Assembly (NCBI RefSeq): GCF_910596095.1
Contig: NC_056546.1
Coordinates: 12,549,925 to 12,613,924, forward strand
Length of the DNA: 64,000 nucleotides
Reading direction: 5' to 3'
From: Thunnus maccoyii
Lineage: Eukaryota; Chordata; Actinopteri; Scombriformes; Scombridae
The translations under genes were made by a program, and so were the position numbers. The notes under the pieces are model-generated. The model was given only the letters and a program-made list of their open reading frames with translations, searched no databases and was not told the DNA's origin. Within the stretch, counting starts at the first letter, position 1. Each line of letters begins with the position of its first letter. Below are positions 25,201 to 58,081 of this stretch, in pieces.

Positions 25201-28200
25201 TTGATTGAATTTTGTCTTAATTTAACTGAAACATAGTGTGTTTTTATTTATTGTTAATTCACGTGAGTTAAACATCCATGATGCACGTTGTTCAAAATGG
25301 ACAGTAAGCTTATATATAGTTTATTGTTCAACTGTAAAAATATCATCACAAAGACGTGTCTGCCCCAAAATATTTGTTTATATTATGTGTTTATGTCAGA
25401 AGAAGAGTATCGGTTGACTGTTAATGGATTTTTATTATTTTCAAGTATCAATATCAGCATCAGCCTCAAAAATCCAGTATCAGTTGGGCTCTTAACATGC
25501 TTTTATGTTTACCCTGGAAATAATAAAGGGAGCAAACAATACAGCGATAATGTTTAAAAGTACGTCAGATAGACTGTTTCTCATCTCACACCTCTTCTCT
25601 CTTGTCTCAGGTGGGGATGGACAAGGCCCTCAATCAGCTCTCTGTGCCCTTGGGACAGTTACGAGAGGAGGTTATGGTATGTTTTCTGATGAAGTGTACT
25701 GTTTTTTTTACTACTGTATTAATTCCTGCTACTGAGTGTTCATGCATATTGCTGGCTGTTATCTGTTTGCAGAGCCTGCGGTCCTGCGTCAGTGAGGTGA
25801 TTCAGTCTATAGACAACCAGCTGTCCAAACAGGAAGATCTGCAGAAAAAAAAGGTTTGGCTCCTCGTCTAGCTGTCTGACTGAACTTAATGTTGTTTCAG
25901 CAAATTATATTTGGTTCCGTACAGAAGATAAACCTGTTTTTGAATGAAACACTGGTTTTCTAACTTTTAATGCGGAGGATAATATGCAACGATATTGTCG
26001 CAGTAGTAGATATAGATATGTAATTGTAGTTTCCTGCTCTGTGGGATGATCTCAATAAATTATCATCATCCTTACATCATCCCATCTGTCAGGTATGTGT
26101 ATTGAGGCTGATCCAAGTGGTGCGCTCAGTGGAGAAGATTGAGAAAATCCTCCACTCACAGAACTCCAAGGAATCCAGCTCTCTGGAAATCAGCAGGTGG
26201 GAAACAGGCCAATAAACATGCTGGCATCATTTTGGTAGATAACAGTTGCAGTTGAATGTGGGCAGATGGACGAATTATGATATTTTACTCAACCAGCCAT
26301 TACATGCACAGTGCCCGTCAACAGACTGCAGAAAATTAAAGTAGATGGAACATGTCTTAGATGTAATTTTGCATTTCTATTTTTTTCAAGCCGCAGTGTC
26401 CAAAGGTATATTTCTGTCTTGTCATCTTGTGCACTTCATACCATTCTCTGGCAAATGTCCAAATTGTTGATATGAAGAGCTATACAGGAATAAAAGTGCT
26501 AGAGAACAGTTTGTTAGTCTAACTTCTGTCTGTCTGTGTTCAGCCCCTTGTTAGCAGGTCAGATCCTGGAGAGGATAGCTACAGAATTCAACCAGCTGCA
26601 GTTCCACGCTGTACAGAGTAAAGGCATGCCCCTACTGGACAAAGTCAGACCTGTAAGTATTATGGGTGAATCAGTCAGACAGCAGATAAATCAATAGCCT
26701 CTCATTTAGTCAATCAGTGTGTCTGCCTGCATTTCTTTCAATCCGTAAGTCCTGTAATTATTTGACAAAGATGATCAGCTTCTGTACAGTCCTTCCGGTA
26801 AGTGGTAAAGGCACTAAGTATGCAGGATATATAGAAGCGTTTTCCTGTTTCCATGCAGCACCGCATCCTGCACAGTCAAATGATCTCTAAAGTAATTGAT
26901 CCCAGCTTTCATTTTGATTCATGGTTCGCTCACTCTAGTTTCCTGGAATGTACTCTCAGTATATTTTCCATACTCGTTTAACTGCGTATGTGACGAGCTT
27001 TTGTACTCTGCCAGCGTATCGCAGGTATAACCTCCATGCTGCAGCAGTCTCTGGAGGGTCTGCTGATCGAGGGGCTGCAGACGTCCAACGTGGACATGGT
27101 ACGTCACTGCCTGAGGACATACGCCACCATTGACAAGACCCGAGACGCTGAGGCCCTGGTAGGACAGGTGCTGGTCAAACCATACATGGACCAGGTAAAC
27201 ATGAGGCTGACAACAAGAGAACTTACTACCTGAATACGGAGCTTCCTCAACTAAATGTTGGAACATTATATCTTGCTTTGATATGAATGCTGTATCATGA
27301 AAATCTCCGCTCCTCCTTTCAGGTGATAGTGGAGGAAGTGGTGAAGTCCAATCCAAACGGTCTCCAGTTGATGTATACTCGACTGTTGGAGTTTGTTCCT
27401 CATCACTGTAGACTCCTCAGAGAGGTGACTGGAGGAGCGATATCCAGGTATTAATATCATTCTGGAGGCAAATTGATTCAAAACACTCATAGATCAATTA
27501 GTTCTTTGTTGTGTATTGAAATCCTTTTGTCTCAACTAGAAAAGCAAATTGTCTGCTTTCATCTCTTGAGCTATTGAGTATTGACCGAGCTGTGTGATCT
27601 GCTTTCACACACTTTGATATGTATTTATTTTGTTTTCTGAATATATATTAATATAATTATCATGCACCATTACAAACAGATTTGTACATTTTGCTTTCCT
27701 TTCATAAAGAGTGTCAACTTTTAGACAATTTCTGTCTACTGGTTCCACAACTTCTCCTCTACAATCATGCACATAAGCTATACTGGCTTAAGTAGAGCCA
27801 ACAGTACAGTAGACAATATGTTATAACATATTTAAAATGTGCTGCTGTTCCTTCTCTCCTCAGTGACAAAGCTGACATAGTGCCAGGCTATGATTTCCTG
27901 GTGAACTCTGTGTGGCCGGAGATGATCAAAGGAATAGAGGAGAGGTTGTCTTACCTCTTCAACCCCGGAAACCCCGACATGTTCTACGAGGTACATCCAC
28001 AGTAACACAACGGGCGCTGATGCGTTCACTTTGGTTTTGCGTATCATACGCTGTCACATGATTCAATGTTAGATTTTGTAGTCTCACCTGGGCGCCTTCT
28101 TTTCCAGCGTTACAGCGTGAGTATGGAGTTTGTGCGGAGGTTCGAACGCCAGTGCAGCTCGCAGGCCAGTGTAAAGAGGCTGAGAGTGCATCCTTCATAC

Positions 28201-31200
28201 ACCAGCTTCCACAACAAATGGAACCTGCCTGTCTACTTTCAACTACGGTACATATTTCCTCAATACAACCTACAAACTCTGTCTTACATCATGTACACAC
28301 ACACACCATCGCTTTCCATATATTGTAAACTGCAGGCATTACCAATGATCATGTTCTATAGTCTTTGAAAAAGTTGGATAATGTCTTTAATCTTGGAAAC
28401 CCAACATAGTTTTTAACAAATACAAAATACTAATTAAATACTAAATAACTAATAATAAAATACTAACTAATACTTTTCTTATTTTAATAATCATCTTTGC
28501 ATCCATTCAGTCAATACATGTTTTTCTCTTTTGAATTTGGATCCCTCAGCTTAAATTGATATGTTCAGACAGTGATGAAGGTGGGATTTCTGCACAGCAT
28601 GTATTTTGAAGAACTGCTTGATCTGACTTTAAGGGCTCAAGAGACAAGTTTTAATTAAAAATGCATCCAGCCTGTCAGCATTTTTTAGGAGAAAAAAGAC
28701 AAGTTGGCAGACGTTCAAAAGTTGAACAAAGCCCATTCTTATATGAATCTTGAAAACTGCTTATTGGTGTGAGCTTAATGCTGAACAATGAAAAGAAGCA
28801 AAATGTAAATTGAGAATATGTGTCAGCGTATTACTAAACATAGCCCATAAACATGACACTGGACCTTGACAGAATAGCCATTGATCTGTGTGAAACCATG
28901 GAGAAGTTGGACACTGTGTCGTCTACTGTTTGTCAACCTGCTGCCCCCACGAACGCACGCATGCACGCACACTGTAAAGTACACAGTGGACAGATTCACC
29001 ATTGCACGTCAAGACAAAGATTAGAGCCCGTGTCCTCATTTCACAATACAAACCTGCACAGTTCAGCCTTTCTGGAAAGTCCATAATTTCCAGTACACAG
29101 TGTTGTTTCATGTCATGAGCATGTGTATATCAGAGCTGAAGCAAGAAATAAGCTGATAACACATTGATTGTTTTGTCCTTCTCTCCTCTGAATGTCTCTC
29201 TTTGTTTTTCAGGTACAAGGAAGTAGCCGGAAGTCTGGAGAACGCCATAAGTGATGGATTAGAGGCAGCACCAGGTACTCATTTATTCTCTCTCATGAAC
29301 ACCAGTGTGCACCTATACTTCTCCCACAGTAACACTTTGTCTGTGTGTGTTTATGACCAGCTGGCAGTGCGTATCACCTGCAGGTGTCTGTGGTGTTATG
29401 GTCCTGCCTAGTTAAGTGTTGGTCAGACAAAGTCTACCTTTCACCTCTGGCTCATCGCTTCTGGAAGCTCACGCTGCAGCTCTACTCACGATACGCCAAG
29501 TTTCTTGACGAGGTAAACGTCAATAAAACAGATAGAGGATTGTAATGATTTAAAAATCATTATTAAGAAAAAGAAGTCCAAACAAGCAGCATCAAATTTA
29601 ATAAACATGTTGCTGCTACTTGATCTTGTTCCTCATGTTGATCGGTATCATGCACAGGTGTTAACTAAAACTCCAGCCCCTGAGGTGACTAAAGAGCCCA
29701 CCAGGCCTCTACCGAGCTCAGCCTCGTCCACCTCCAGTCGAACTTCAATGGACGAGGCCGGCAGCGAGAGCGGGAGTCCCACCTCTCTGTCCACCAAACA
29801 GCTGGTCTACATCGCAGCGGACATCCAAAAACTACAGGAGCAGGTGCAGCTACAGAACGTTTAAATTAACATATCAGAGCACAGCTGTTTCACAAGTTTA
29901 GACAAGTTGTTATTGACCTTTGCCTGAATATTACATAGATGACAAATTGTCACTTTTTGAGTATTTTGCAATGATTCCGTGATGTTTTCTTGTCTATCTA
30001 TTAGATACCAGAGTTGTCAGAGATGGTCAGACAGCGGTTAGAAGCCATTGGATTCAAGAACTTTGCTGTTGTGGAAGGTAAACGAACCATGCAGTGCGTG
30101 TGGAAATCATTTTAGCTTTTCACTTCACGTGCAGTGTTTGCTTGATCTCACTCTGCACTGTTTGGTCATAAACTGTGGAAGAAACGTGCAGAAAGACTAG
30201 AGTGGTGATGCAATCTTAAATGCCAGTGTTCACTGACTTTTAAAAAAATGTCAACATTCAAAAACTCCAGCAGGCTAACATGACATCTTCGTCAACAAAA
30301 TCGTGGTCAGAAAATGACGCCATTCTTTCCTCTTTGTGTGTCACTCTCCATCCCTGTCTGTAACACAGTGATAAATCAGACTGTGTGTGTATGATACTTG
30401 TGCATTTACTATTGTTCTCTTCTATGTCAGGTGCTCTGGCGGACTCCAAGGCTTGCCTCTCAAGTAGCATTCCCACTCTCAACAGTAGGATGACCCAGCA
30501 TCTGACTGAACGCTGCTGTCGCTTCCTGAAGAGTGCCTCTGAGGTTCCACGACTCTACCGCAGGACAAATAAGGTCAGTGAAGCTTAGCAACGTGCACAC
30601 ATACATGTTTCTCCTATATTACATCAGATAACATTTCTTGAAGCAAACATTGACAGCACATGACACTTGTCTGCTTTTGACAAAACCTTGAGGGTTGATT
30701 CACTTGGAACTGTGTTGTGACTATTTTTTTATTAGACATGCTATAATTAAAAGTCAGAATTTTAGCTTTGAAATGCATTGACCGGTCATATTTTAATGAA
30801 ACTTGGTGAGATGAACCAATAATAATAAAGTACTCCACTGGCATTCGAACAAATGCAAGTGGAGTACTTTATTATTATTGGCTCTAACATTGAGCCTATT
30901 AATAAACTAAGTGATGTTTCAGGGTGACGATGGACATACTATTAAGATATTGATATATGAAGCACATCAGTTCCAAGAAAATTTTAAGTGAACTTGAAGG
31001 TTCATTATTGACCTTGTAAATGGCAGTTTGACAAAAAAATTCAAGGTCCACTTACTGGACTCAAGTTGAACTCGTGCCAACAACTTTTTGTCAAATGTAT
31101 TCATAAATCTTACTCTTTCTTTCATTCATTCATCCACTCACGGTTAGCCTGTCTGCCCCCTAATGTCCAGCATCACTGCTTTGCAGCTGAACTGTGTATA

Positions 31201-31384
31201 GCTGCATCTATGATATTGTGTTTTCTTATTAATCAACATGTTCTGTAGCATTGTTAGCAAAGTCCTTGCTATTGGGAGTCACTATTGCAGAGTGAATATA
31301 AAGGAAAAACTGATCCTGATAAAGTTTTATTGCCCCTGAATGTGATTCTGAGTATCTGCTGATATATGAGACTGATTCTGTATT

Positions 31385-31421
<37 letters not shown>

Positions 31422-32716
31422 CTACACAGTTGAGCTGTACAATGCACATTATATCTGGTAAAGCAATTTCATTATGACTTTTCATTGTGACTTATCACAA
31501 CAACTGCATAGCTCTACACTGAGAAAATGAAGCCTACAACATGCTCTTTCTTTTTAATAGTTAAATAGAAAGGGTAGTAAGGCTGGAGCTGTTGTGACAT
31601 GAAGGTTCGGATGATTTCAGCCACTCCTCATCTCCAACATGAACAAAATCACATATCAAATGTATATCTTCGCCACCAATCAGTAGCATATAGATTGTTC
31701 TGAATACAACAGTCTACTTCCTTCCTGGACAGGATCTGCCGGTGCGCGCATCAGCGTACATGGACAACGCCTTACGTCCGTTACATCAGGTGTTGACTGA
31801 CTCAACGGGGCTGGTCACGCCTGCTACAGCACAAGAGTGGCTGCGAGTTGCACTTTCTGACTGCACACAGAGGTGAGCTCACACACACAAATACACCCAA
31901 ATATAGTACTAGTGTGAGAAGAATTAAAGAAGTATTTACCAAGGCCTGCGGTGTGACGTTCATCCATTAAATGTAAATGAAAGAACGTCAGCTTCATTTT
32001 AAAATGTCCTTTCATATTGACTAAAAGAAACTGACGGAATTTTAGTAGATGTACCCAGGTGAAATTACAATACAATATTTTTTGTTCTCATTCCAGTCAG
32101 TATAGTGGTAGTAGCCTATTTTTTTTTTTATTTGATCAAGATTTATTTCCAACCGCACCCGAGTTTGAATCACTGCCATTTTCCATCTTTCTTAATGTGT
32201 CCGTGCTTTGTGTTCAGGTACTATGAGACCATCTCTGAGGTGCTGAGCTCAGTGAGGAAGATGGAGGAGAGTCTAAAGCGTCTGAAGCAAGCCAGGAAGG
32301 GCACGACCACGACTACCACAGCAGGAGCAAACGGCGGACCCACAGACGACAGCAAGATCCGCCTTCAGCTGGCGCTCGATGTGGAATACCTCGGGGAACA
32401 GGTGGGTGGTGCTTGACAGGTGCACAAACACATGCAGACATGTGCGGTGACAGATATGCACATGTAACAATCATATGAAGATTTCTCTGGTAAAAACATA
32501 TATATAGACAAATTATCTGAATACACAAACCTACAAAATTGCGTTACGCACACAGTGTCACCTGAGATACCTTTAATTATTCTCTCTTAACCTGCTCTGT
32601 ACTGTTGTGTGTCTCAGATCCAGAAGATGGGTCTTCAGCCAACTGACATCTCGATGTTCTCCACTCTGATGGACTTGGTGAAAGAGGCCCGAGAGCTTGC
32701 TGATCAGAACCAGTAG
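22252..32716 (+). CDS. cog2: Conserved oligomeric Golgi complex subunit 2
   Basis: Eighteen coding exons give 729 residues (human COG2 has 738): 22252-22308, 24793-24954, 25611-25676, 25773-25853, 26093-26196, 26544-26652, 27015-27194, 27323-27447, 27864-27990, 28108-28247, 29213-29274, 29361-29512, 29658-29843, 30005-30077, 30431-30573, 31733-31872, 32218-32401 and 32618-32716. All introns are GT-AG and in phase. The start MNLPKGPDSLCFDKD is preceded in frame by TAA, so the extra N-terminal residues of human COG2 are absent. Landmarks include LYYKLLKTAMVELINKDYAD, GQILERIATEFNQLQFHAVQ, RTYATIDKTRDAEALVGQVL, WNLPVYFQLR, and IRLQLALDVEYLGEQIQKMG at the C-terminus. The least conserved part is the Ser-rich linker in exon 13. 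COG2 belongs to lobe A of the COG tether at the cytosolic face of the Golgi, acting in retrograde vesicle traffic and so in glycosylation. Confidence 0.98.
22597..22744. repeat. CT/TCTG-rich low-complexity tail of a LINE
   Basis: Repeated TCTCTCTG and CATCTTTCTGCCTGTTT-like units directly abut the 3' end of the minus-strand LINE. On that strand the block is a GAGA/CAGA-type tail. Confidence 0.8.
22745..24700 (-). mobile_element. 5'-truncated, inactivated LINE in cog2 intron 1
   Basis: Read on the minus strand, translation gives NYREICVTSCMGEMLCNIIN (about 24.4 kb), MPNHRTSDHIFTL and CFVDFKKAFD (24324-24200), and the catalytic box MFADDLILLS (about 23.95 kb). The C-terminal reverse-transcriptase region follows, with DPIMLYGSEVWG and LIIKLQKRAIKFYKHL (23.5-23.7 kb). 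Frames shift several times, so it is dead. The 3' end is AATAAAGCTTATTTGAATTTG at about 22763-22743 followed by the GA-rich tail. The 5' boundary is approximate. It lies antisense to cog2, ending about 90 bases before exon 2. The clade is not assigned. Confidence 0.85.
24024..24042. repeat. (AT)n microsatellite inside the LINE
   Basis: A short TATA run interrupts the minus-strand LINE just after its FADD box region. Confidence 0.85.
24955..25610. other. cog2 intron 2
   Basis: A 656-bp AT-rich intron in which no repeat or gene is seen. The 3' end has a normal pyrimidine tract before the acceptor at 25610. Confidence 0.7.
28248..29212. other. cog2 intron 10
   Basis: A 965-bp intron with AT-rich sequence and TACTAA-type words near 28425-28475. 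No gene or clear mobile element is seen. The shorter cog2 introns (85-420 bp) likewise show nothing notable. Confidence 0.7.
30816..30881. repeat. 66-nt hairpin, 24-bp perfect outer stem
   Basis: Bases 30816-30839 are the exact reverse complement of 30858-30881. Inside, one mismatch (G30840/A30857) is followed by five more pairs (GCATT/AATGC), leaving a 6-base loop. The outer stem contains AATAATAATAAAGTACTCCA. Size and shape recall a microRNA precursor or a tiny palindromic element. Confidence 0.9.
31387..31420. repeat. (AT)n microsatellite
   Basis: An uninterrupted AT run of about 17 units lies in cog2 intron 15. Confidence 0.93.
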
Positions 32717-35076: not shown

Positions 35077-37864
35077 TTAGAGTGTCGGATTGGTGATTTT
35101 TCCCAGCATGAGGATGGCGTTAGAATCTCCTTCTATGACAGTGAAGAGGAATGGCCGGTTGATGGACAGCTTCAGAGGGACGCCTTCTTCCTGGATCTTG
35201 TCCTGAAGCTCCGCACCTTCCTCTGACATCTCAAACGACACCTTGTTGATTGCCTGAGAGGAGACAGAGACGGCAGGTTAACTTCATGATGCACACAGTG
35301 AATGATTCTTACTATGATTTGACAACTTGACAACGCAGCCTGTTCACCTTATCTATAGTGACAGGTTTAGTGTTGCTGAGTTGGCTGAACTCAGCCTGGG
35401 AGCCCAACAGTTTGGCCTCTATTTCTGGATCCATGTTGGTCAACAGGTCACGCAGATCAGTCACAGAGGACATGGAGAACTTCGGCAGCGACAGCTCCAA
35501 CAGACTGGAGGGATGAGAAGGAAACTGCTTTTAAAATTTAAGATGAAAAGTATTTGAACTGAAATGGGATTGTACCTGATTCTTCAATATCCCTAGCCTC
35601 ATTTGCTCTACTTTGATATGATGACACATCATTGATTGACTAACCTATAAAATGGCAAATATTGTATATCCTGGATCTGTTTCTACAGTCAAAAACCAAA
35701 AGTGATAAAAGTTTTGTTTTGGAGAAATTATGAAAAATAATAAACGCCAAAAAGATCTTAGAAACATAGACAATTGTAATTAATATTGCTAATATCTTCT
35801 AAATTAGATGTATGTAGGTTTGATCAGTTATCACAAATAATCAAAAATGAAATTGTAATAATTAGAGAAGTCCCATGCAATAAGTTGTAATACATCCAGT
35901 ATTTAAAAGTGAGCTATTCACCAAGAAAAAGTGACATTTGAACAGAAATTACACAATTACTGTCCATTGAAATGTTGCAATGTTGCAAGTCACATTAAGT
36001 TGATAAATTTTTTTAAAAATGGTTACAAGACAAGATATGATTCTGATTTACAGTTTGTCAAATGATTTGTGGGTGATACTTGATTTGAATTTAGTGATAA
36101 AGTTTGGAAAAGCACAATTCTTACCCTTCCTGGAGGCTCCGGTGCCAGTCAGACATGACTTCAGTGCGCAGCTTAGACTCTATATCGTGGAGGTTGGCCC
36201 CTTCGTGAGGCAGGACCAGCAACATGTAGGACCGTTTGCTCAGAGACAGCTTCACAACTGTGCACCGCCGCACCTTCATGGTAACCAAACAAAAATATTT
36301 ATTACAGATGCGTGCGGTCATTAAGATAAGAGCAAACTCTGCCAATATTTCACTTTTTTTATAGGTGGAAATATGTGTAAAGTAGAAATACACAAAATAG
36401 CTCCAACAAATCAACATTAAGACAGATCTCCTGAACTAAGATTTACCTTATCATTCAGGTAGTGGTACTGACCCGTGTGGGTCATCAGTGGAGTCATTAC
36501 TGTGGTCGTTTCATCCACGTGAAACTCCTGCAAGGAGGTTTTCTCTGGCTGGAAGGCTGTCCTCCAGTTGCCTGAACACACACGACCAGACCATCAAGTA
36601 AGGTGGTGACATTTTTGTAGGATTTCAATTTGTTGTTTGAACAGATCAAGGCAAACTGCACAAAGTCAAATCCCTGTATGTTTGTCAGTACTTTTATACT
36701 GTATAGTAAAAGTAATCAAATCTGATTGTGATGATAATAAGTGGTCAGATTTTTTGGTGCCACACATACTGTACTTTTCAGCTGTATTTAAAGTAAGAGT
36801 GAGTAGTTGATTCAGTATTATCATCCTGGCAGTGTGGTTAAGATTGAAGCAAGTCTTATGATGCAAGTCTTTATAAATGTATGTGCTATAAAAAAAACCC
36901 AACTTTACAGAAGTCTAGAGAAAAGACGGAGAGACGGAAGAGACAGACCTTGGAAGTTGAAGAAAGTAAGGAACACAACGTTGGAGCTGGAGTTTAGATC
37001 TTTGAAGATGCTCTTCACTTTCCCGTCTGACGTCTTGTCCACAAAGCTGTTCATCAGCTGCTCAGCTTCCTGTGGTTTAGAGAAGTCCACGCCGCGGATG
37101 AACGATGCGTCTGAGAAGTCTTGTGTGCCTTGAATAAAGTCCTTGGATAGTTGAGCGTCCTGGCGAGTGAAGGCCCACACCTGGGTAGTGATTTCATCTT
37201 TGGGTCCATCGTCCACTAGAGAGTTAATGCTCTGCAGGGTCTTCAGAACCTTGTGTCCGTCCACTAAGGACACACAGTCCTCTCGGTCGGTGCCACTGCT
37301 CAGGCCAAGAAGAAGCTGGAAAAATAGAAGTGGGTTAGGAAAAGCTTGTGTCTTTGAATTAAAGTACGAGACCTGATAATCTGATAAATGGGTTAGGACT
37401 GAATTAATCATCTCTTCATTCAACAAGAACAAATCAAAAGTAAAGACCTGGAATGAGCTTGCCGTCTTCTTGGAGGCCCCCAAGTAGAAGGTGACGAGGG
37501 ATCCAAAGGTGTTGACTGGAGAGAGGAGGGTGTTGGTGCTTTGCTGTTTGCTGCTGAGATCCTGGTACATCCTCAGGCCCAGAGAGTTCAGCAGCTCTGC
37601 CAGAACCGCTGTTCTCTGCGTGATATTCTGCCTCTGGCCATCCTGGTTTGATGGATCCCTGCTGTCCGGTGTCAGGACTTCAATGTCAAGGGGTGCCACA
37701 GGAAGTGTCTGCAGAGGTTTGGCAGTCTGGGTCTGCAGGGTCTCACAGCTGACGTTTTCGCCGGCAAAGAGATAGAAGGGGTGAACGTAGACGCGGTTGG
37801 CTTGACTTCCTGATAGGTAGCAGCCAAGTAGGAGGACTAGAATAGGCGACCGCAGGCTCTGCAT
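35077..37864 (-). CDS. agt: Angiotensinogen (non-inhibitory serpin, angiotensin precursor)
   Basis: Coding exons 37864-37448, 37315-36949, 36571-36447, 36273-36125, 35504-35348 and 35253-35077 give 463 residues (human preprotein 476-485). Residues 1-22 form a signal peptide ending SGSQA. NRVYVHPFYL (23-32) is angiotensin I, with angiotensin II as its first eight residues; renin would cut after L32. Cys40 and Cys153 (GTDREDC) align with the human redox pair Cys18/Cys138 that tunes renin access. The serpin fold follows, from SPVNTFGSLVTFYLGASKKT through FHVDETTTVMTPLM to NRPFLFTVIEGDSNAI and LGKITNPTL. Glycosylation sequons include NVS at 37 and NIT at 80. The protein is made mainly in liver and secreted. 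The 132-bp first intron within the coding region is stop-free and a multiple of three (see findings). The gene converges with cog2, as in human 1q42. Confidence 0.97.
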
Positions 37865-37902
37865 TTTACCTTTTGTTGGTGGTCACCTTAAAATGATTCC
37901 TT
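37865..37902 (-). other. agt: agt 5' UTR part of exon 2
   Basis: On the minus strand an acceptor (pyrimidine tract ending CCCCCACAG) precedes base 37902, 38 bases before the ATG. This matches the known agt layout, in which exon 1 is non-coding. Confidence 0.65.
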
Positions 37903-42393: not shown

Positions 42394-45300
42394 ATGAAAG
42401 AATTCACCATGTGGACTCTCTTGGTTCTTTGCAGCGTGATCACCTCACATGGAGTGCAAGGTATTGTCCACTACTTTCTTATCGGTTTGTGTATTTTTCA
42501 TTCAAAATATCAGTTTTGCATTTTTATTTTTAGGGCAGTTCTGGGCAACATTAGTTTGAGCAGTTTTCAGTATGTGTTTTGATATTTTGTCTATATGGTT
42601 GTACTTTTTTTTAGATATTTTTACTTGTGCTGTCACTGGTCTTTAAGCGACATATGTACTATGAACTCCTTTTTGGTTTGCTTTTGTCATAATCCATCAG
42701 GTGCTGGTCTCCCCCCAACAACTGAGGAGGCGAATACAGCACCACCAAAATCTCAAGGTACATAGTTACTTAAAAAACTACATTTTTAATTATCCAGCAT
42801 ACATCTAAAATGTGAAATCTAAATGGCTTGATGTGTTGCTTTCAGATGGTTTTAACCAACACTTTCAGTTAAATCAGTGGCATTTACTGAGTGTGTCCAA
42901 GGTGGAAAGATAGATTTCCGGTTATCAGGATACCTAAAATATCTTTTATCTTATTTTTAAATGATTTTCAGTTTGAGTGAGAATGTGTTTTCGCTTGCAT
43001 TTAAGTGTCAAATGTACTCTCTGAGTTTCCTCTTTTTAACTTTTCCAGAATTGGATGCAAGATATACATTTGGTGTGACTGATGATTATTACTGGACCAC
43101 TGACGCAGGTAAACTAAGTGCCACTAAAACGAGAAGTATAGTGTCAGATTGTGTTTCTGGGTGTACTTGGCTTTGTTTCTAAACTATCAAGCCAGAGAAT
43201 ACTGACCAATAGAAAGCCGAGGTTTTCCAGGCTGAAAATTCAATTCAATAACGACAACAACATTATAAAAAGAGAAAAGAAAACAAATTTTACAGGTCTG
43301 GATAACTTGCAGACCTTTGTTGTGTAATTGTGCTACCTGAGACAAATCCTCTTAGCTTCATTGGCCAATTTTCTAAAAAAAAAAAGACAAAAACAAAACA
43401 AACAAAAAAAACATAATAATAATAATAATAATAATTCACTTGTATGATTGCATTTTTCATCACTGTATCATGTGATCTGCTTTCTTCTGGTCATTTGTCA
43501 TTTTTCCATTCTTAATGAGTAATTTCATCTCATTCTCATGATCCTATGTTTCTTCAGGTTGGGACTGTGGCGGCTACCTGTATGGCAGCAGTGGCACTTT
43601 TCAAAGCCCCAACTATCCAAACCCATACCCACACAACGCCCACTGCACATGGTATATCAGACCAGGCAGGCAAATCATACAGCTGGAGTTCCCTTCTATA
43701 GAGTAAGTCCAACAAGAATTATCAACTCAGATGCGTGTTGGTTCACATGTGGTTTGGATGATTAAAAGATTAATGAAAGTTGTGATGAATGTGATAAAAA
43801 CATTCCCCTGTAATCTCTAACTGCTTCTGCTATATCATTTGTGGCTCTATGTTCAATCCTCTGTTCTTCTTTTGCTCTTATCACAGAATGGAGAATCAAG
43901 CATCGTGCCCTTTTGATTATATTTACGTCTATGATGGTTCCAGTACCAGTAGCAGGATTCTTGGGAAGGTGTGTGACAACAATGTCACCTTCCACTCCAC
44001 CGGTGCTTATTTAACTGTGCGATTCCGGACTGATGGTAGTGTTAACGACAAAGGATTTCGAGCTAACTACCATGTTGTCTGTAAGTCACAATGATTATGA
44101 TCAAGATGTTTATGCATTTTACAAAATATGTAGTATCACCATTTTAATGATATCTAGAATTTTAATAACAATAAAAACCAAAAGAAATCCTATTACAACC
44201 CTGAAGAGATCAACCTAAACTATGTGTTTTCAGTGATGGGAATTGTTTTATCTGTTCTTTCTGTAGCTCAAGGTTCCTGCAGATACAACTGTGGCTACCA
44301 GGTTGGAACCTGCTCTTGTTATTCAGGCTGCGAATACGGTGGGAACTGTTGTCCAGATTATGGAGGTAAAACCAGGCTGTAGCAGTAAAATGGTCTACAC
44401 TCACCAAGCACTTTATTAGGAACACCTGTTCAATCTAATGCAATCCAATACAACAGCTTTGCCATAAATTCTACTTTTATGAAGTTCATACATTTTCGGT
44501 TTTGTTGATATTGTCAGAAAGGTAATAATTCTACTTTATGTTTATTAATGAGGTAATAGTGGGTGGTGGTGGTGTACTGGAGTGCATTATATTTAAAGGT
44601 GTTCCTAGTATTTTGCTCCCCTCATGTGTGTTAATATGGTGGTTGCATTAGATTGCACAGCTCCTAATAAAGTGATTGGTGAGTACATGGTGAATATGTT
44701 AAGAAAAAGGAAGTAAGAAAGGAATAACCTTTATTTTTCTCTCCGTCATGCAGCGTACTGCTCAACAACTACTATGGATCCATACATCACAGGTATAAAA
44801 ACTTCTCAAGCTACACCTAATTTACCTTAAAGTTCTTGATATGTAACGTTTTTTAAGTAATAAGCAGTAATGTCAACATCAACCTGTGTCTCCCAGCTCA
44901 GCCCTCATGTCGAAACAACTGCGGCTACAACATGGGAAGCTGCTCCTGCTCGAGCTCTTGTCAATACTATGGCAACTGTTGCTATGACTACTACTGTAAG
45001 TGTCAAGTCCTAACAAATCAACAGCATTTACAGGTTCTGCGTCCCTCTCTTGCTGAAGTCCGTCAAATTCCTCACTGCTTATGTGGACATGATGTGATAA
45101 TATTTGTTAATCACAGTTGCAGAATAAACAGTAGGTGTATCGGAATGTGTGTTTTACACAGTACGAAGAGATAGTGATCACTTTATTCTCCTCTCTCTGT
45201 CATGTAGCTTACTGCCTGTCAACCACTGACTTACCCATTGACACCACAGGTATGCAAACCCTCTCAACAACCTAAATATAAAAGAATAAACCATATCACC

Positions 45301-48300
45301 AATTGTTGAAATGTTTTCATATCCTCCTGTGTCTCCCAGCTCAGCCCTCATGTCAATACAACTGCGGCTACAACATGGGAAGCTGCTCCTGCTCGAGCTC
45401 TTGTCAATACTATGGCACCTGTTGCTATGACTACTACTGTAAGTGTCAAGTCCTAACAAATCAACAGCATTTACAGGTTCTGCGTCCCTCTCTTGCTGAA
45501 GTCCGTCAAATTCCTCACTGCTTATGTGGACATGATGTGATAATATTTGTTAATCACAGTTGCAGAATAAACAGTAGGTGTATCGGAATGTGTGTTTTAC
45601 ACAGTACGAAGAGATAGTGATCACTTTATTCTCCTCTCTCTGTCATGTAGCTTACTGCCTGTCAACCACTGACTTACCCATTGAAACCACAGGTAAGAAA
45701 ACCCTGTCAACAACCTAAATATAAAAGAATAAACCATATCACCAATTGTTGAAATGTTTTCATATCCTCCTGTGTCTCCCAGCTCAGCCCTCATGTCAAT
45801 ACAACTGCGGCAGGCACCTGGGAAGCTGCTCCTGCTCAAGCTCTTGTGAATACAATGGAAACTGTTGTTATGACTACTACTGTAAGTATATGTCCCTCAA
45901 AGCTCGGCAGAGAAGCCACTGTTCACTATGATCACACTAATGAAATCCATATTTTTTTTAATTTTTTTTTTAAACAGCCTACTGCTCATATACAACCGAC
46001 ATATCAGGCACAGGTAGGATCCTCAGTGTACAAAATTAGCCTGCAGCAAATATAGTTAATTGCAGTGATTCTTATGTAATTTTGTGCTTCTTCAGAAACA
46101 CCCTGTGGAGGCCACTTGTATGGCTCTGGTAACATCTCCAGCCCCAACCATCCCAATTACTACCACGACCATGCCTACTGTGTCTGGCAGCTCAGAGCAT
46201 CGTATGACCAAAGAATCTACTTGGCATTCACATACCTGCAGTGAGTGAAGAGTAGACTACTTTTATACTTTTATATACTTTATTATTATAAATAAGTGGC
46301 ATTATCACGTACTATATTTCAAGAATATCATTAACTTGTGGGAAAAATACCTACCAATTACAGAATAAGGCTCTCAACTAAACTATTCTTTTGAGTTTTA
46401 CTTCAATAAGTCAGTGATTTATGGCTTTTATCATCTTTTTAAAAAACAGATTGGAGAACTGCTGCACCTGTGACTACATTGCAATCTATGATGGGCCGTC
46501 TGTTAATTCACAATTTCTGGGAAAAGTGTGCAATGACAGTCAGAGCTCTTTCTACTCCTCCTCCAACTACATGACTGTGCTCTTCCGCACTGACAGTTCA
46601 GTGGTCGGCCGAGGATTCAAGGCTGAGTTCATGAGCTCTCTGCAACCAAGCTCAGGTAAAATTGTGGTAGATTTAAGACGTCTAGTTTTGATATAGTTGT
46701 TATATGTGTGTTACATGTCGGGGACTGACTTAGCTCTTGTGCATCATTTTATTTCAAGAGGAACTTGTCATGTCATAACTGTATAATGTCTACTGTTTAT
46801 AACAGAAGTTTGTAAGATTTAAGAATTAACCACGTGGAGAGGATTTTACAAAAAGATGCTATTGGTTGTATTGTAGGAAATGTAGGATTAAACAGTTTTG
46901 GAGTAATGTACTACGACAGTTTTAGTCACATTCTAGTGACTAAAAGTTAGGATATTTTTGCCTTTGCTGCAACCGTTTTATTTAATCTGTTTTGATTCTT
47001 TCAACTTTATGCAAGTGCAAAACAATCATTGCAGTAATACTTTAAATGTCACCCTAGTAGTACATCCTTAAATCAACCATAATACTGTAAATTAGCATGT
47101 TAACATGTTGACGTGTAGCATGTAATAGTGTGTGTGTTAATGTGTTAGCATGCCAACATTTGCTAATTACCACTAAACACAAAGTACAGCTGAGGCTAAT
47201 AGGATGTCGGCTTTCCACATATTTGGTCATAAACCACAGTATTGGACAAATTAAACATGTTTACCTGATGGTGGCACTGGATGCAAAATGAATATCTATA
47301 CCACATTTCATAGCAGTCTATCCAATAGTTGTCAAGGCTTTTTGCTCAAAACCACAAATCTAAACCTCATGGTTGTGAGAAAGGAATAACCAAAATCAAT
47401 TTATCCACTGGGGACCATGAATGTCTATACAAAATTTCATGGCAATCCATCCAATAGTTATTGAGATATTTCAGTTTTGACAAAAGTGGTAATCCAGCCA
47501 ACTGACTGACCACCAGTGCCATCCCTACTTAAAACATTGTATAATCTTACACCTTCATCCTGAAAATCAGTCAAGTTGTAAATATCTTGTGAACATGGTC
47601 CTTTGTCAGGTCGAGTGGACTGTTCCTCAGACAACATGAACATTGTGATTCAAAGGAGCTACCTGAACTCTCTCGGCTATGACGGCCACAGTCTGTACGT
47701 GAACGACCCACACTGCAGACCCCAGGTTTCCTCATACCAGGTGGTCTTCAGTTTCCCCATTAACACTTGTGGCACCGTTCGAAAGGTAGACAACTCACCG
47801 CCTTCTGAAAACTTTCTAAGAATTCTCACACAAATTACTGTGATGGTAGGGACTTTGATGCAGACATTACAGAAATCTTGACATTTTTTCCAATATCTTC
47901 TACTTGGAACAGTTTGAGAATGGCAGAGCCGTGTACACCAACACTCTCCGTGCCTACACCTCCAGTTACGGAGAGATCACGCGCCAGACTCACTTAAAGC
48001 TGAACGTTGCCTGTCGAATGGAGCAAGACTCAGTGTCGCAGATTATGTATGTCGTCAATCATCATGATAACAGCAGCATTACAGGCACAGGCAGATTCAA
48101 TACCAGCATGGCTTTCTACACATCCAGCAGCTTCTACTACAAGGTGTGAAAACTTTTTTCTTCAGGTAGTAAAGTGGTGTCTGTTCATAAATAAATTAAT
48201 ATTGGAACTACTTCATAACACATGTACATGCACATTACAGTTCAACAGAGCAGCCATAACGACATTGCTTTTACACTCTCTTCTGTCAGGTGTCTCAAGT

Positions 48301-48998
48301 TCCATACGAGGTGTCACTGAACCAGAACCTGTATGTCCAAGTGGACTTGAGAAGGGGTGACTCTTCCCTGGTCGTTTACCTTGACACCTGTGTGGCCTCA
48401 CCATCACCCCATGATTTCCAGACCAGATCCTACGACCTGGTCCGTAACGGGTAAGCTGAAAGATCTTGAGTGTTATAGGCTGATTTCTGAGATCTGTGTT
48501 ACTTACATATTCATAGTACCTGTATTCTGCAGTCACAATGTCTCTGTTGCACTTTCAGATGTTCCATTGACAGCACCTACCGGGCTTACCTCACTGGTAC
48601 CCATCCCTACGCCCGTTTTGCATTCAAGTCCTTCAAGTTCCTGCGAGCCACAGAGTCTGTATACATCCAGTGCAAGGTCCTGATATGCCAAGCTTCTGAC
48701 TACAATTCCCGCTGCCGCCACGGCTGCAACAGACGACAGGCCAGAGACCTGGGGTCAGAACACGACAGCCAGACTCTGGTCCTGGGTCCCATCAAACTTA
48801 AAGGTCTGTACACATTTTCACCTGGTTTTTATACCAATAGAGGATTAATGAAAGAATTCTGTTGGGCTGGAAACAAGAAGTTATCTCCTGTGTTTATTGT
48901 ATAATGATAATCATACATGATCATCATACAATTATTTCTTGTCATTTCTAGACCTTAAGAAAAAGGAAGACGGGGCGCATAAGGAGGACAAGGTGTAA
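42394..48998 (+). CDS. Secreted CUB / SMB-like x4 / CUB / zona pellucida domain protein
   Basis: Twenty exons give 762 residues: 42394-42460, 42701-42757, 43049-43108, 43558-43702, 43887-44080, 44267-44365, 44754-44792, 44897-44995, 45208-45249, 45340-45438, 45651-45692, 45783-45881, 45978-46013, 46096-46240, 46450-46655, 47610-47785, 47913-48143, 48290-48450, 48559-48803 and 48952-48998. All introns are GT-AG and phases agree. Order: signal peptide ([19 protein letters not shown]), short linker, CUB1 (about 64-174: [19 protein letters not shown]), four Cys-rich modules (175-359), CUB2 (about 360-476: [19 protein letters not shown]), ZP domain (about 480-740: [24 protein letters not shown]) and a Lys-rich tail. 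Each Cys-rich module has the spacing C-x3-C-x6-C-x-C-x3-C-x5-CC, a shortened somatomedin-B pattern. No membrane helix is seen. ZP domains polymerise; the architecture recalls the DMBT1/CUZD1/GP2 mucosal group, but the exact orthologue is unknown. Confidence 0.92.
43376..43436. repeat. A-rich tract with (AAT)n
   Basis: A-rich sequence passes into eight ATA/AAT units at about 43412-43435, in intron 3 of the CUB/ZP gene (43109-43557). Confidence 0.9.
44397..44688 (+). mobile_element. MITE family D, complete copy
   Basis: The left end ACTCACCAAGCACTTTATTA is mirrored by the right end, whose reverse complement reads GTACTCACCAATCACTTTAT. The element is about 290 bp, non-coding, in an intron of the CUB/ZP gene (44366-44753). 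Its left 100 bp match 40997-41095 in inverted orientation. Confidence 0.75.
44897..45782 (+). repeat. Tandem duplication of a 443-bp exon-pair unit
   Basis: Unit 1 (44897-45339) and unit 2 (45340-45782) each hold one 99-bp SMB-like exon, a 212-bp intron, one 42-bp exon and an intron. They differ at only a handful of bases, introns included. A third SMB-like exon begins at 45783, again 443 bases on, but diverges after it. Confidence 0.95.
46656..47609. other. CUB/ZP gene intron 15 with repeat family C
   Basis: This 954-bp intron separates the CUB2 exons from the ZP exons. Its second half is repeat family C copy 2. The first half is AT-rich and unremarkable. Confidence 0.7.
47090..47515 (+). 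repeat. Dispersed repeat family C, copy 2
   Basis: It has the same word order as 41233-41650: TTAGCATG units, ACAGCTGAGGCTAAT, ATATTTGGTCATAAACCA, ATGAATGTCTATACAAAATT and CATCCAATAGTTATTGAGAT. Confidence 0.75.
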
Positions 48999-51356
48999 CT
49001 TCATACTGCAATGAGCTGCTTCGATCATTTTTACTAATCATTACAGCTCTTGTTGTTGTGTTTATGGTGACACTGAATTATACTCAACATTTTCTCTTTA
49101 TCTCATTACCTGATTAAAAGCATCATCAAAAGACAATCTGTGTTTGTGTATTTCATTATGTCATACTTGTAAATGAACTTCAAGTATTAATGTCCCAGGA
49201 TAAATATTTGTGATATGAATGCAAAGCAGATGGAGAAAATGAAAACAAAAGACAGCACAGCTCTGTTAGAAAACACTTTACTTATAAATTAGTTAGATTA
49301 ATCCATCTCACAATAAAATGATTTGCCATCCCAGAGGGAGAGAGTGATCGCCAAAAGGCTTCAACGTTCACCATTACCTATGAACCTACGACACACTGAG
49401 AGAACATAAGGCAGTCATTACTGGATGCCCCTATTACTGGTAAGCATGGTGACAAAGAGGTGGTCCTAAAAACAGTAACTATGTTCTTCACACATGTTGC
49501 TAAGCAACAGACAACAGTACCCGAGACAAAGAACAATCTTGCTAAAGTAGCAGTCTTACTGCAACATGTTTTTTTTTCTTTTTACACTGAACATCTATCC
49601 AACCACTCAGAATACAATACGCAGTAAATATTCAGAAAAGCACTGGGATCCATATGATCGATGGGGAATCTCAGTGTGTGTTATCACAAAAGGCTAAAAC
49701 GTGGCATCCCCTGTGCTACGTGGCAATTTCTGAAAAAGTGTTCACATGTCACACAAGACATTGTGATTCTGTCCTAAACATGAAGATACTGGATATCAAA
49801 GTGACTTCATACAATATCAAAATATCAGAATGTGATATAATGTAATTTAACATAATTTAACAAAAAAAACAGTGAAGTTGCCGTAACGTGCTGGTAACGG
49901 AAGGGCACTGTGTGGAGGAACTACAAAAATAATACGACTTCAATACAATCTAGTTAACGTGTTAGCTGGCTGACCAAAAACCACTGATATAAAGTTTGGC
50001 CAGGTTTTACTGTGGATGCCACAGCTGGCATTGATTCCAAAGTTACGTAGCAGCATTCATGGAGCAGAATTTTGGCAAAATCATGGCTACCATAGAAAAC
50101 TACAATGGCAAAAACCTTCTTCTTATGGTCCTGGGCAAAGAAGAAGAATAGGATATTGTAATAATATCTGTTAAACTTCAAAGTAACAGTCCTCTTGATC
50201 TTGGACACACAAGAAAGTGAATCTGTCAGGCACTGCAAAGAAATAGTTGTAATGCATCAAAGCACTGAAATAATTTCAACAAGGCTCAAGTAAGATCACT
50301 CTAGGCCAACAGTGTCACTCCTGTGTTAGTATCATCAGAGCAATCTTTAGATATAGCTACAGGAGTGTTGAGAATTTATTTGGGTGGCCCACTCATATAG
50401 ATTTGTTTATTTGTTGTTTGCATTTTGTAGTTTTTCAAATGGGAGATGCTATTGAGTGTAAGAGCCATTTTGCTATATGAGCAGCTCCTCGCCCCTTAAC
50501 TTCTTTGGCAGGCACAGGTGAGCTACAGTCCTCCATCAGGTGATGTTCAAGGATGTCAATAAAAACATTAATTTTAGCAAATGGATGTGTCTGATTTCGT
50601 CAAAATCTATAGTGTGTCCTATCAAAAAAAGGACTACACCTGCATTTTTTGTGCATCAAAAGTCACTCAGAAGGAAAGTGCTCAAATTCACTTCAAAATA
50701 TGGACAGGAGGAGCAGGGAACCTGCAATTAGTGGATGACCTGCTCTACCTCCTGAGCCACATGAGCCCCTTCCTGCAGCCACTGGTTTCCAGTGACCTCA
50801 GTAGTGTATTAAAATCACCATATAGATTGAAAAAAACGTCCTGCTTGGCTTTATTTTGTCAGTTATGTTAGGCCTGCATGGCATTGTGTTTAAAAATGCA
50901 GACGTATTTGAACAGTTTGCCCATCAGCTGAGATTATGTGCTTTTGAGACCCTCCAACATTTGCACAGCATTGCACTTCTAAAGAATGGATTTGTAAAAA
51001 CCAATGGTTAATGTAAATTTGGTAACTTACTACATTAAATAAGGTGACAAATATTAGTCTTGCTAACTTCCAAGTTAGGGAGGTGTTTTTCTGATAGCCA
51101 ATGAAAGTGACTCCCTTCACCACCACAAGTAAATTCTCAACCTGTGGAAAACACTGATCATCCCTTTATAATACACTTGAATGGGCACCATTAATTATAC
51201 AAAAGAAACCATCTGAATGTTGAATTTTCCTGTATAAGTACAACTTTCAAAAGGCTAGGCTACATCAAGGCCAAGTAAAAGACCAATAAATAAAATTACT
51301 ATGGAATTAATAAAACAAAGCTGTCCGTTTAAAGTTCTTTTCCTCATTCATTCACT
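48999..51356. other. Convergent 3' ends of the CUB/ZP gene and ikzf5
   Basis: The CUB/ZP 3' UTR probably ends after ATTAAA at 49113-49118. The rest is the expected long ikzf5 3' UTR (minus strand) and spacer. Candidate minus-strand AATAAA signals exist (for example 50855-50850), none clearly best. No gene or mobile element is recognised. Confidence 0.6.
49113..49118 (+). terminator. Probable polyadenylation signal of the CUB/ZP gene
   Basis: ATTAAA, the commonest variant signal, lies 115 bases after the stop codon and is followed by a TGTGTTTGTG stretch. Confidence 0.55.
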
Positions 51357-53530
51357 TTACTTGTGCTGCCCGCGGGCAAAGTGGCAGGCAAAGTCATACT
51401 TGCTCTTGCACTTGTATCCGCAGATGTTGCACTGGAATGGGTTCTCGTAGCCATGGCAGCCCATGTGGATGGTGTACAGGATGTTGTCGGGAAAGTAGAT
51501 GTCACAGTGCTGGCAGTGATGCAGCATGTGGGGGTCCTGGAGTGGGGCAGACAGGCCTGGGACTGGTGTACTGGGTTGGCTGTTGGAGATACTAGGGGTA
51601 CTGGTGCGCCCACTGTGCTCGCTGCAGGGTCCCCCTCCAGGGCTGCAGTTGCTGTGTGGCGGAGCTCGGGGTTCTGGGGTGATTGGGGAAGAGGAGGAGG
51701 CATGGGCCATGCTGGCTGTGACAGCCACAGGAGCTGTGGCAGGGTGGGGTTGCTGGATGAGGAAAGGCTTCTCGTCGACAATAGACTCGGCTCCGGGAGA
51801 CATGGGAGGTTGAGTCTGGGCCTGGGACTCTGAAGGGAGGCTGGCCAACTGGCCTGCCAGGGTGGACAGCTGGTTCAGGGGGTTATCCATGACCATATCA
51901 TGGTGATGATGATTTTGATTCGCGGAGATCCCGTCCTCGCCTGCCTGACTCTGATTATCATAGGTCTCCTGACGTAAGTGGGGTAGTTCATGGGAGTAGT
52001 CATTCACATTGTCAGCCTTGTGCACCACCATAGATGGGGGGCTGAAGTTGATGAGGAGTCGGCGGCCATAGCCCAGTGAGCTGGCCTTCTTCTGCAAGAC
52101 ACTTAACATCTTCTTATGGGAAAGTGAGCGAGCACCTTTCATTGGCAGGAGTTTGTGGCGTCTGCGGCGATGGTGTGACAGGTTGCTACGGTCACTGCAG
52201 CGGAAGGAGCACAGCTCGCACTTGTAAGGCTTCTCGCCTGTGTGTGATCTCATGTGGGCCTCCAGGTGGCGTTCGTAGGCCGAAGCAAATGGACAGAGGT
52301 GGCAGCGGTGAGGTTTCTCTCCTGTTTGATCAAAGAAAACAGGCTAAATAATAAAACCTTGTGAAAATTAATCTGAAAGTCAACTATTAACACTTACCTG
52401 TGTGAATTCGGATGTGCTCAATGAGTCGCGCTGTGCCTCTGGTGGCATAGTTGCAGTATCGACACTTGAGCTTGCCATCATAGGTCCTCTCAAAACCATC
52501 CACTAGGATCCCTGAGTTGTCCTCCAGTGACATGTCCACTGCAGGGTGATCCAGCCCATTCTGACTGCAGTCTGCATACAGGGACATTTACAGAGGTAAA
52601 TAATTTATGCTAAGAAAGTAGGACATGACATTCCATACAAAATCTGACTTTACTTCACTATCTAGAGAAACATATGATCCAGCAATGATGATTTATGTTC
52701 CAGTCTAGTTGTTTACAATACCCTGTGGTACAACACTCTTACACTATGCTACTTATTGCTGATAACATGTCACAATGTAATACAAGCAGGACATTGGCAC
52801 TGAAGTTGTAACCATAACTAATAATAACTGATCACATATGTATTGTAGAATCATGTGGATAAGGATGACCATGCCTGATTACTAAGGCTGATTATTTTCT
52901 CAATAAATCAATTAACTGTTTGGTCTTTAACATGGCAGAAAATGGTGAAAAATGTCAATCACTGTTTCCCAACGCCCAAGATGCAACCTAAAATGTCTTT
53001 TTTTGTTCCAAACAACAGAGATATTCAGTTTACTATCATAAAAGGACTACAGAAACCAGATAAAATTCACATTTGAGAAGCTGGGACCAGAGAATTTTTT
53101 GCATTTTTTTCTTTAAAAAATGAATGAAAAAAAAAAACAATGTATAGGTTACCAAAATAGCTGGCGATTGATTTTCTGTCAATCGACTAATCTATTAACC
53201 GACACATAGTTGCAGCCCTACAGATGACTATAGCAATTATTCATTACTATAACAATCATCAAGTGTTAAGTATCTGAAGTCACGTATCAGGTCATTGTTA
53301 GAAGTACATCTGGCATCTGTTTGCCTGAAATAAACGTAATCAAATGGTACCAAACTGCTGAATTCATACAGAGCAGCTGTAAACATGTCAACGTTACCGG
53401 CTGGCAGCTCGTCCGCCTCTTTGACGCCGCTGACGGAGCCTGATATCATGTTGACATGTTGAGTCTGCTGGCTCAGGTACTCCTGGAAATCCTTCACAAA
53501 GTCCAGCGTGTCCGGCTTTTCCTCACCCAT
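51357..53530 (-). CDS. ikzf5: Ikaros family zinc finger 5 (Pegasus)
   Basis: Three coding exons, 53530-53398, 52571-52398 and 52321-51357, give 423 residues (human IKZF5 419). The start MGEEKPDTLDFVKDFQEYL matches the conserved N-terminus. N-terminal C2H2 fingers: LKCRYCNY...HIRIH, HRCHLCPF...HMRSH and YKCELCSF...HRRRRH; these mediate DNA binding in the family. The middle is Ser/Pro/Gln-rich with a short His run (NQNHHHHD) and the conserved PSMVV and DNPLNQLSTLAGQLASLP segments. Two C-terminal fingers (HHCQHCDIYF..., FQCNICGYKC...HFARGQH) form the Ikaros-type dimerisation pair. It is a nuclear transcription factor that can dimerise with other Ikaros members. The fingers are nearly identical to human; only the linker varies. 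Confidence 0.97.
52572..53397. other. ikzf5 intron with repeat family A
   Basis: An 826-bp intron, largely occupied by repeat family A copy 3 at 52889-53222. The flanking parts are AT-rich and unremarkable. Confidence 0.75.
52889..53222 (+). repeat. Dispersed repeat family A, copy 3
   Basis: This is the best-preserved copy of family A: 'ATTTTCTCAATAAATCAATT' start, 'AGATATTCAGTTTAC', 'TTTGAGAAGCTGGGACCAGA', 'TCAATCGACTAATC' and 'GTTGCAGCCCTACAG' end. It is antisense to ikzf5. Confidence 0.75.
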
Positions 53531-53558
53531 TGAAAAGAAATGGTGCAAATATCCAACG
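53531..53558 (-). other. ikzf5: ikzf5 5' UTR part of first coding exon
   Basis: A minus-strand acceptor (GTGATTGCAG) precedes base 53558, 28 bases before the ATG. It implies an upstream non-coding exon. Confidence 0.65.
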
Positions 53559-53743
53559 CTGCAATCACATTTTACAAGTATTAACCTACTGGGCAACACA
53601 GATTAATAGACAGGAGGTCAGGTAAAAAAATATAGAAGCAAAATATGAGAACACCATAAATCACAAACATACAACCAACTACATTTAGAAACGTATCACT
53701 CTCGGTGACGTAAGCTAGCTGCTTTTCTAAGATGCACACTTAC

Positions 53744-54927: not shown

Positions 54928-58081
<3,154 letters not shown>

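Follow-up and report, generated by a model that had tools for sequence, protein, structure and literature searches.

A CUB-somatomedin-B-CUB-ZP gene in Thunnus maccoyii: a probable relative of DMBT1 and CUZD1 with a recently grown module array

What kind of protein places four small cysteine-rich modules between two CUB domains and then ends in a ZP module, and what could such a protein do? A gene of this make-up, which we call the CUB-SMB-ZP gene (SMB, somatomedin-B), occupies positions 42394-48998 on the forward strand of a 64,000-nucleotide stretch of the Thunnus maccoyii genome. This whole stretch is the window referred to throughout (NC_056546.1, our contig C14, 12549925-12613924, in an assembly of 782 Mb and 54 contigs). 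The best explanation, to which we give a probability of roughly 0.6, is that the locus holds an intact member of the DMBT1/CUZD1 gene family. Its product would be a secreted glycoprotein, built in the order signal peptide, CUB, four SMB modules, CUB and ZP, and would act as a mucosal catcher or agglutinin or as an organiser of a luminal matrix. What is new here is the SMB array in the slot between the CUB domains, its recent growth, and its separation from the SRCR arrays present in the same genome.

Gene model, domains and the somatomedin-B array

Rebuilt from the raw sequence, the 20 exons add up to 2289 bases, that is 762 codons and a stop, with consistent phases, no internal stop and GT-AG borders at 19 of 19 introns. 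The gene is real and intact. A first-pass annotation of this DNA had proposed the same 20 exons and 762 residues, which were reproduced, as was its order CUB-(SMB-like)4-CUB-ZP: a Pfam-A scan (whole-protein scores against gathering cut-offs, stretches counted at E <= 1 each) returned two CUB stretches, four SMB stretches and one ZP-C stretch. These domain matches lie far above chance. CUB (PF00431) reaches 173.7 bits against a cut-off of 21.4, ZP-C 106.8 bits against 24.6 (residues 594-719), and Somatomedin_B (PF01033), with a cut-off of 23.1, 49.3 bits in the whole protein and 72.9 bits in the isolated array, so that the protein belongs with the CUB and SMB proteins. The most hydrophobic 19-residue window of the 762-residue protein begins at residue 8, and the top eight windows in hydrophobicity begin within residues 3-10; no C-terminal hydrophobic tail of the transmembrane or glycosylphosphatidylinositol (GPI) type was found. 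The CUB and ZP parts together carry five N-glycosylation sequons; the SMB array has none.

The two CUB domains are alike (53 of 109 aligned residues identical, 49%) and each is spread over two exons split in phase 2. Calcium-binding CUB domains are described as carrying an acidic triad of one Glu and two Asp (PMC10214685); read from an alignment with cubilin, E112, D120 and D159 of CUB 1 and E410, D416 and D456 of CUB 2 would be these calcium ligands.

The ZP part contains 10 cysteines. Its ZP-N half gave no Pfam match and is seen via PDB alignments with uromodulin, GP2 and choriogenin H, from about residue 478. The alignments with uromodulin (8.4e-23) and GP2 (1e-20) span the whole module, from residue ~477 to ~748, and bring cysteines, cleavage region and LGPI patch into register; in two blocks of the uromodulin alignment 11 of 35 and 23 of 79 columns are identical. 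Matches to choriogenin H, ZP2 and ZP3, several of them fragment chains, are weaker (1e-7 to 9e-5). A cleavage-like RQAR site lies at residues 725-728, and a segment resembling an external hydrophobic patch, near residues 738-747, aligns with that of uromodulin. The protein thus has all the parts of a ZP module: ZP-C, ZP-N in front of it, a cleavage site and a hydrophobic patch.

All four central modules follow the pattern C-x3-C-x6-C-x1-C-x3-C-x5-CC-x6-C (3-6-1-3-5-0-6). The first-pass annotation had counted six residues in the first long loop, correctly for every module, and had taken this short loop as a departure from somatomedin-B. That second step fails, because the same loop occurs in the SMB domain of SUSD2 (2cqw), the best PDB match of the array. 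Since the SUSD2 cysteine spacing is identical and the Pfam cut-off is passed, the four modules are, on their sequence, plain somatomedin-B domains. Given the SUSD2 spacing, the idea that the short loop marks a new type of module is rejected; the first SMB domain of ENPP1 has seven residues in that loop. More unusual than loop length is the exon layout. Each module takes two exons, one of 99 nucleotides with seven cysteines and a second of 36-42 nucleotides with the eighth (residues 210, 256, 303 and 350). A genome-wide SMB family search returned 16 matches, none of them in the CUB-SMB-ZP gene, an absence probably due to the eighth cysteine being encoded outside the module exon.

The array's eight exons are all in phase 1-1, and gain or loss of an exon pair therefore preserves the frame. 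Moreover, units 2 and 3 of a 443-bp tandem repeat, each made up of both exons of a module and their introns, are identical at 434 of 443 bases (98%), introns included. As read from the DNA, the array evidently grew by recent tandem duplication of this unit. Because units 2 and 3 are nearly identical even in their introns, array length may vary between individuals, and the same near-identity lends support to the earlier hint of a stalk of varying length. The likeness of the two units could also stem from gene conversion or from an error in the assembly. Over 96 compared bases, module exon 4 has 12 differences from module exon 2 and 11 from module exon 3; between module exon 1 and the others there are 38-39. 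Judged by these pairwise differences, module 1 split off first, module 4 next, and modules 2 and 3 parted last. The nine differences between units 2 and 3 comprise four in 141 exonic and five in 302 intronic bases (p = 0.47). Three lie in the compared module-exon codons and all change the amino acid, as does, by eye, the fourth exonic difference, in the spacer exon. Positive selection on the array was considered and rejected: exons and introns differ to a similar degree by this test, and the differences are too few to use.

Probable kinship with DMBT1 and CUZD1, and ZP, CUB and SRCR loci elsewhere in the genome

Two CUB domains followed by a ZP module in one protein, the arrangement shared by known members of the DMBT1/CUZD1 family, are present in the window gene. 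DMBT1 is described as an SRCR array with interspersed SID, followed by CUB-SRCR14-CUB-ZP (PMC3100851, PMC4851238). CUZD1, 607 residues long in human, is described as having two CUB domains and one ZP, as resembling part of DMBT1 and as having DMBT1 directly upstream (PMC3654630). The first-pass annotation had suggested a link to DMBT1, CUZD1 and GP2, which the domain frame and the ZP matches bear out. It had also thought the domain order to be without a named precedent, and here only half of the claim survives: the CUB-X-CUB-ZP frame is known from DMBT1, and two CUB domains with a ZP from CUZD1, whereas for SMB modules in a CUB-ZP protein we found no description in the titles, abstracts and passages searched, mostly from outside subscription journals. 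Somatomedin B occurs together with CUB and SRCR in the text of two of the papers listed (PMC2246102, PMC8242945). Fish genome annotations may well hold orthologues named DMBT1-like or CUZD1. The gene is not CUZD1 in the strict sense, as it carries four SMB modules between its CUB domains and has no hydrophobic C-terminus.

A comparison with a provisional sequence of the human DMBT1 C-terminus, to be taken as a lead only, gave 116 matches in 285 positions over the ZP module and the tail, collinear into the tail. The same provisional stretch, again as a lead, was searched against 52 loci together with the CUB-SMB-ZP gene. The latter came out best, at 112 bits, followed by loci on contig C1 at 52 bits, and the four ZP loci of the SRCR cluster described below were not among the best 25.

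Searched against the genome, the whole protein returned at least 61 matches (best 59 of 199 candidates scored). Outside the gene's own exons these included CUB-region matches, the best at 43% on contig C12 near 22.10 Mb, with a cluster near 27.5-27.6 Mb on contig C21. Among those scored, the ZP region had a single match elsewhere, on contig C1 with 22% identity, and the SMB region had none. The CUB family gave at least 153 matches (best 150 of 330 candidates scored) and the SRCR family at least 153 (best 150 of 400). ZP-C gave 78, two of them in the CUB-SMB-ZP gene; 60 of the other 76 fall within the loci that were compared, and tblastn of the model against those loci (E <= 0.001) matched two, at 25% and 24%. 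Among the matches listed, and with the lists compared by eye, the CUB-SMB-ZP gene is the only place where a CUB match and a ZP match are no more than 50 kb apart.

SRCR domains, in turn, are concentrated on contig C2, where at least ~98 matches by hand count lie on one strand between 30.887 and 31.059 Mb. They form runs, and after each run comes a ZP match in the same orientation, at 30.902, 30.959, 31.012 and 31.061 Mb (L008, L010, L014 and L019). The best PDB match of the ZP exon at L008 is uromodulin (1.7e-9), then GP2 (1e-8), and no CUB was found at the cluster among the matches listed. Runs and ZP exons would form single genes, and the cluster apparently holds four or more recently amplified SRCR-array genes with a uromodulin-type ZP. 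Thus, the SRCR arrays of this fish appear to reside on ZP genes of the uromodulin type, and its CUB-CUB-ZP frame of the DMBT1 type on the SMB gene. One could go further and envision the halves of DMBT1 in separate genes, with CUB-X-CUB-ZP carrying SMB modules at the old DMBT1/CUZD1 place and SRCR with uromodulin-type ZP on another chromosome, the arm modules of mucosal ZP scaffolds being exchanged between lineages and SMB length varying from one individual to another by unequal exchange of the 443-bp unit. We consider this extended scheme rather doubtful.

Some further features of these families deserve mention in their own right. The SRCR runs show repeat spacings of ~0.54 and 1.2 kb, and several of their scores are identical. 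ZP-C matches cluster on contig C11 near 1.96-2.58 and 0.85-0.91 Mb and on contig C1 near 37.1-37.3 Mb; the identical scores of several C11 matches suggest recent duplicates of other ZP genes. On contig C21, CUB matches on one strand extend over ~160 kb near 27.48-27.64 Mb, in a large CUB-repeat gene or a gene family.

Proposed function and competing explanations

How could such a protein work? In the DMBT1/CUZD1-family reading, a mucosal or digestive epithelium would secrete it, cleavage at RQAR would free the hydrophobic patch, and the ZP modules would then form filaments as those of uromodulin do. The CUB-SMB4-CUB part would protrude as an arm and bind ligands in a calcium-dependent manner. 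Its role would resemble that of DMBT1, GP2 or uromodulin: microbes would be caught or agglutinated, or a luminal matrix would be organised; by analogy with them, the product is likely a secreted mucosal or digestive agglutinin. In uromodulin, cleavage is reported to release the external patch and to permit head-to-tail assembly (PMC11210992, PMC4755741), and filaments of GP2 and uromodulin are described as having branches that serve as decoys for a bacterial adhesin (PMC8930769). Binding of bacteria by DMBT1 is attributed to its SRCR array, which is said to vary in copy number among people (PMC4851238).

Several observations weigh against this reading. The Pfam scan of the model contains no SRCR domain, so that the gene is not DMBT1 in the strict sense; no SRCR lies on contig C14 among the matches listed, and a crude pattern found no SRCR signature in the six frames of the window. 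The gene neighbourhood gives a mixed picture: zinc-finger frames at 51357-53602, downstream of the gene on the opposite strand, match C2H2 only in Pfam and many zinc fingers in PDB, Ikaros and Helios among them, and we take them to be IKZF5. A table for a human 10q deletion gives the order DMBT1, PSTK, IKZF5, ACADSB, and CUZD1 is not in that list (PMC10340279). By eye, no PSTK was recognised in frames of at least 60 residues in the window or of at least 90 residues in two flanks of 9.9 kb. Shared mobile domains alone can, moreover, mimic kinship (PMC3927612). As to mechanism, the protein has no membrane anchor, which counts against polymerisation, and a soluble uromodulin is described as being secreted without undergoing cleavage at its site or polymerisation (PMC4755741). 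Reports on SRCR14 state that it does not bind bacteria (PMC4851238, PMC3100851). Because the SMB array sits in the slot of SRCR14, it need not bind microbes; it may serve as a spacer or have another ligand.

The missing anchor leads directly to a different picture, in which the protein stays a soluble monomer: its CUB and SMB parts would serve as a secreted adaptor or inhibitor, the role of SMB in vitronectin, and its ZP module would not polymerise. The lack of a hydrophobic C-terminus and the published behaviour of soluble uromodulin (PMC4755741) favour this picture. However, the RQAR site and the hydrophobic patch have both been kept, which suggests selection for controlled polymerisation, and we hold a permanent monomer to be unlikely. 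The gene model itself might instead join two genes or alternative transcripts, so that no single protein would carry both CUB domains and the SMB array. The model comes from genomic sequence alone, and skipping of its eight small phase 1-1 exons would leave the frame unchanged. Against such a fusion stand the single signal-peptide exon, the single stop and a frame that is continuous through 20 exons, as well as the occurrence of the two-CUB-plus-ZP order in known single proteins; of all the explanations weighed here it is the least probable.

Where the protein acts is a further matter. A place in zymogen granules or pancreatic juice, where it would pack or protect digestive enzymes and its SMB modules would bind a secreted protease or inhibitor, is a tentative alternative with odds clearly below even. 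A Paralichthys olivaceus "pancreatic protein with two somatomedin B domains" (BAA88246) appears among pancreatic enzymes in a delta smelt array table (PMC2806348), and GP2 and muclin are described as pancreatic and CUZD1 as a pancreatic antigen (PMC3654630). The flounder record, however, was compared by name only and may be unrelated to the window gene, and a simple pattern found no PTF1-type site in the 1 kb upstream. The ZP domain of the window protein, in a genome with 78 ZP-C matches of which many would be egg-coat genes, also brings a chorion component to mind, an option raised by the first-pass annotation. Beyond this we found nothing in its favour, and it is quite improbable. Choriogenin H, ZP2 and ZP3 match the ZP module far more weakly than do uromodulin and GP2, its best matches; among 60 of the 76 other ZP-C places the model matched two loci at about 25%, and the whole-protein search found one ZP-region match at 22%; and the 1 kb upstream has no full oestrogen-response palindrome. 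That upstream kilobase does contain one oestrogen half-site and two TTTATG matches, which mean little, and patterns for HNF1 and HNF4 have no match in it. Passages on anchors and cleavage in a medaka egg-coat paper held nothing of use here (PMC10140178). A gene named Cuzd1 is reported to change in salmon gill (PMC8129531), and a Cuzd1-annotated unigene to differ between scaled and scaleless Gymnocypris skin (PMC7694923); neither is tied to the window gene.

Feature layout, neighbourhood and comparison with known systems

Table 1. Elements of the CUB-SMB-ZP gene, in window coordinates
Feature	Position	Strand	Content and basis
TATA-box-like TATATAA	42348..42354	+	46 bases 5' of the start codon; pattern match, consensus only
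Exons 1-3 (42394-42460, 42701-42757, 43049-43108)	42394..43108	+	Signal-peptide-like start and short N-terminal linker, residues 1-62; spliced model
Exons 4-5 (43558-43702, 43887-44080)	43558..44080	+	CUB domain 1, residues 65-171; Pfam CUB, PDB match to cubilin CUBs
Exons 6-7 (44267-44365, 44754-44792)	44267..44792	+	Somatomedin-B module 1, Cys 179-210; Pfam SMB and spacing
Exons 8-9 (44897-44995, 45208-45249)	44897..45249	+	Somatomedin-B module 2, Cys 225-256; Pfam SMB and spacing
Exons 10-11 (45340-45438, 45651-45692)	45340..45692	+	Somatomedin-B module 3, Cys 272-303; Pfam SMB and spacing
Exons 12-13 (45783-45881, 45978-46013)	45783..46013	+	Somatomedin-B module 4, Cys 319-350; Pfam SMB and spacing
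443-bp tandem DNA repeat, ~2.3 copies	44878..45887	+	Module exon, intron, spacer exon and intron per unit
Exons 14-15 (46096-46240, 46450-46655)	46096..46655	+	CUB domain 2; Pfam CUB
Exons 16-19 (47610-47785, 47913-48143, 48290-48450, 48559-48803)	47610..48803	+	ZP module; Pfam ZP-C and PDB alignments
Exon 20	48952..48998	+	Charged tail and stop; spliced model
ATTAAA polyadenylation-signal-like hexamer	49113..49118	+	Read in the sequence

In the rest of the window, tblastn of the model (E <= 1) found no further CUB, ZP or SMB exons except for a chance-level match at 27096-27179 (E 0.57), and Rfam gave no match at its gathering cut-offs. Exons for the Golgi-complex subunit COG2 lie on the forward strand at 24727-32416 (Pfam COG2_N at 24727-24981, COG2_C at 32063-32416). 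A serpin resembling angiotensinogen (PDB 8h55, E 4e-71) has its first large coding exon on the reverse strand at 36905-37882, with NRVYVHPF near the start of that exon. COG2 stands beside angiotensinogen here, as it does in human 1q42, so that the window joins a 1q42-like to a 10q26-like block. On the reverse strand there are also a transposase fragment at 14462-14998 (Pfam DDE_Tnp_1_7, 106.6 bits), which we assume to be of piggyBac type, and, at 23342-24503, frames that by eye resemble pieces of reverse transcriptase from a long interspersed nuclear element. A tubulin coding exon, presumably of alpha type, lies on the forward strand at 57053-58081 (Pfam Tubulin and Tubulin_C), with an upstream exon seen by eye near 55834-56310.

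If the DMBT1/CUZD1-family reading is true, a conserved scaffold of CUB, CUB and ZP is separable from exchangeable arm modules. It then becomes testable whether growth of the array was selected for binding or is a mere consequence of the exon symmetry of the repeat.

Set beside known systems, the window gene resembles DMBT1, also known as gp340, salivary agglutinin, hensin or muclin, in that two CUB domains flank a disulphide-rich module, though of another kind, and precede a ZP. Both also have a tandem array of modules that is liable to change in copy number, in DMBT1 the N-terminal SRCR array and here the SMB array. Neither tail has a membrane anchor, human DMBT1 ending without one as well. 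Unlike DMBT1, the window gene has no SRCR domain and no N-terminal SRCR-SID array, and its four SMB modules fill the SRCR14 slot. CUZD1, also called UO-44 or itmap1, likewise has two CUB domains and a ZP, but it lacks an SMB array between them and has a membrane anchor, which the window gene does not. With uromodulin and GP2 the likeness lies in the ZP module, where the cysteines, the cleavage region and the external hydrophobic patch correspond, and the difference in the branches, which are EGF/decoy modules in those proteins and CUB-SMB in the window protein. GP2 is GPI anchored. The same is reported for uromodulin (PMC11210992). SUSD2, ENPP1-3 and vitronectin, finally, share the SMB module, SUSD2 down to the identical spacing 3-6-1-3-5-0-6. 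The window modules differ from these SMB proteins in being split over two exons each, with the eighth cysteine in the second, and none of these proteins is known to join SMB with CUB and ZP.

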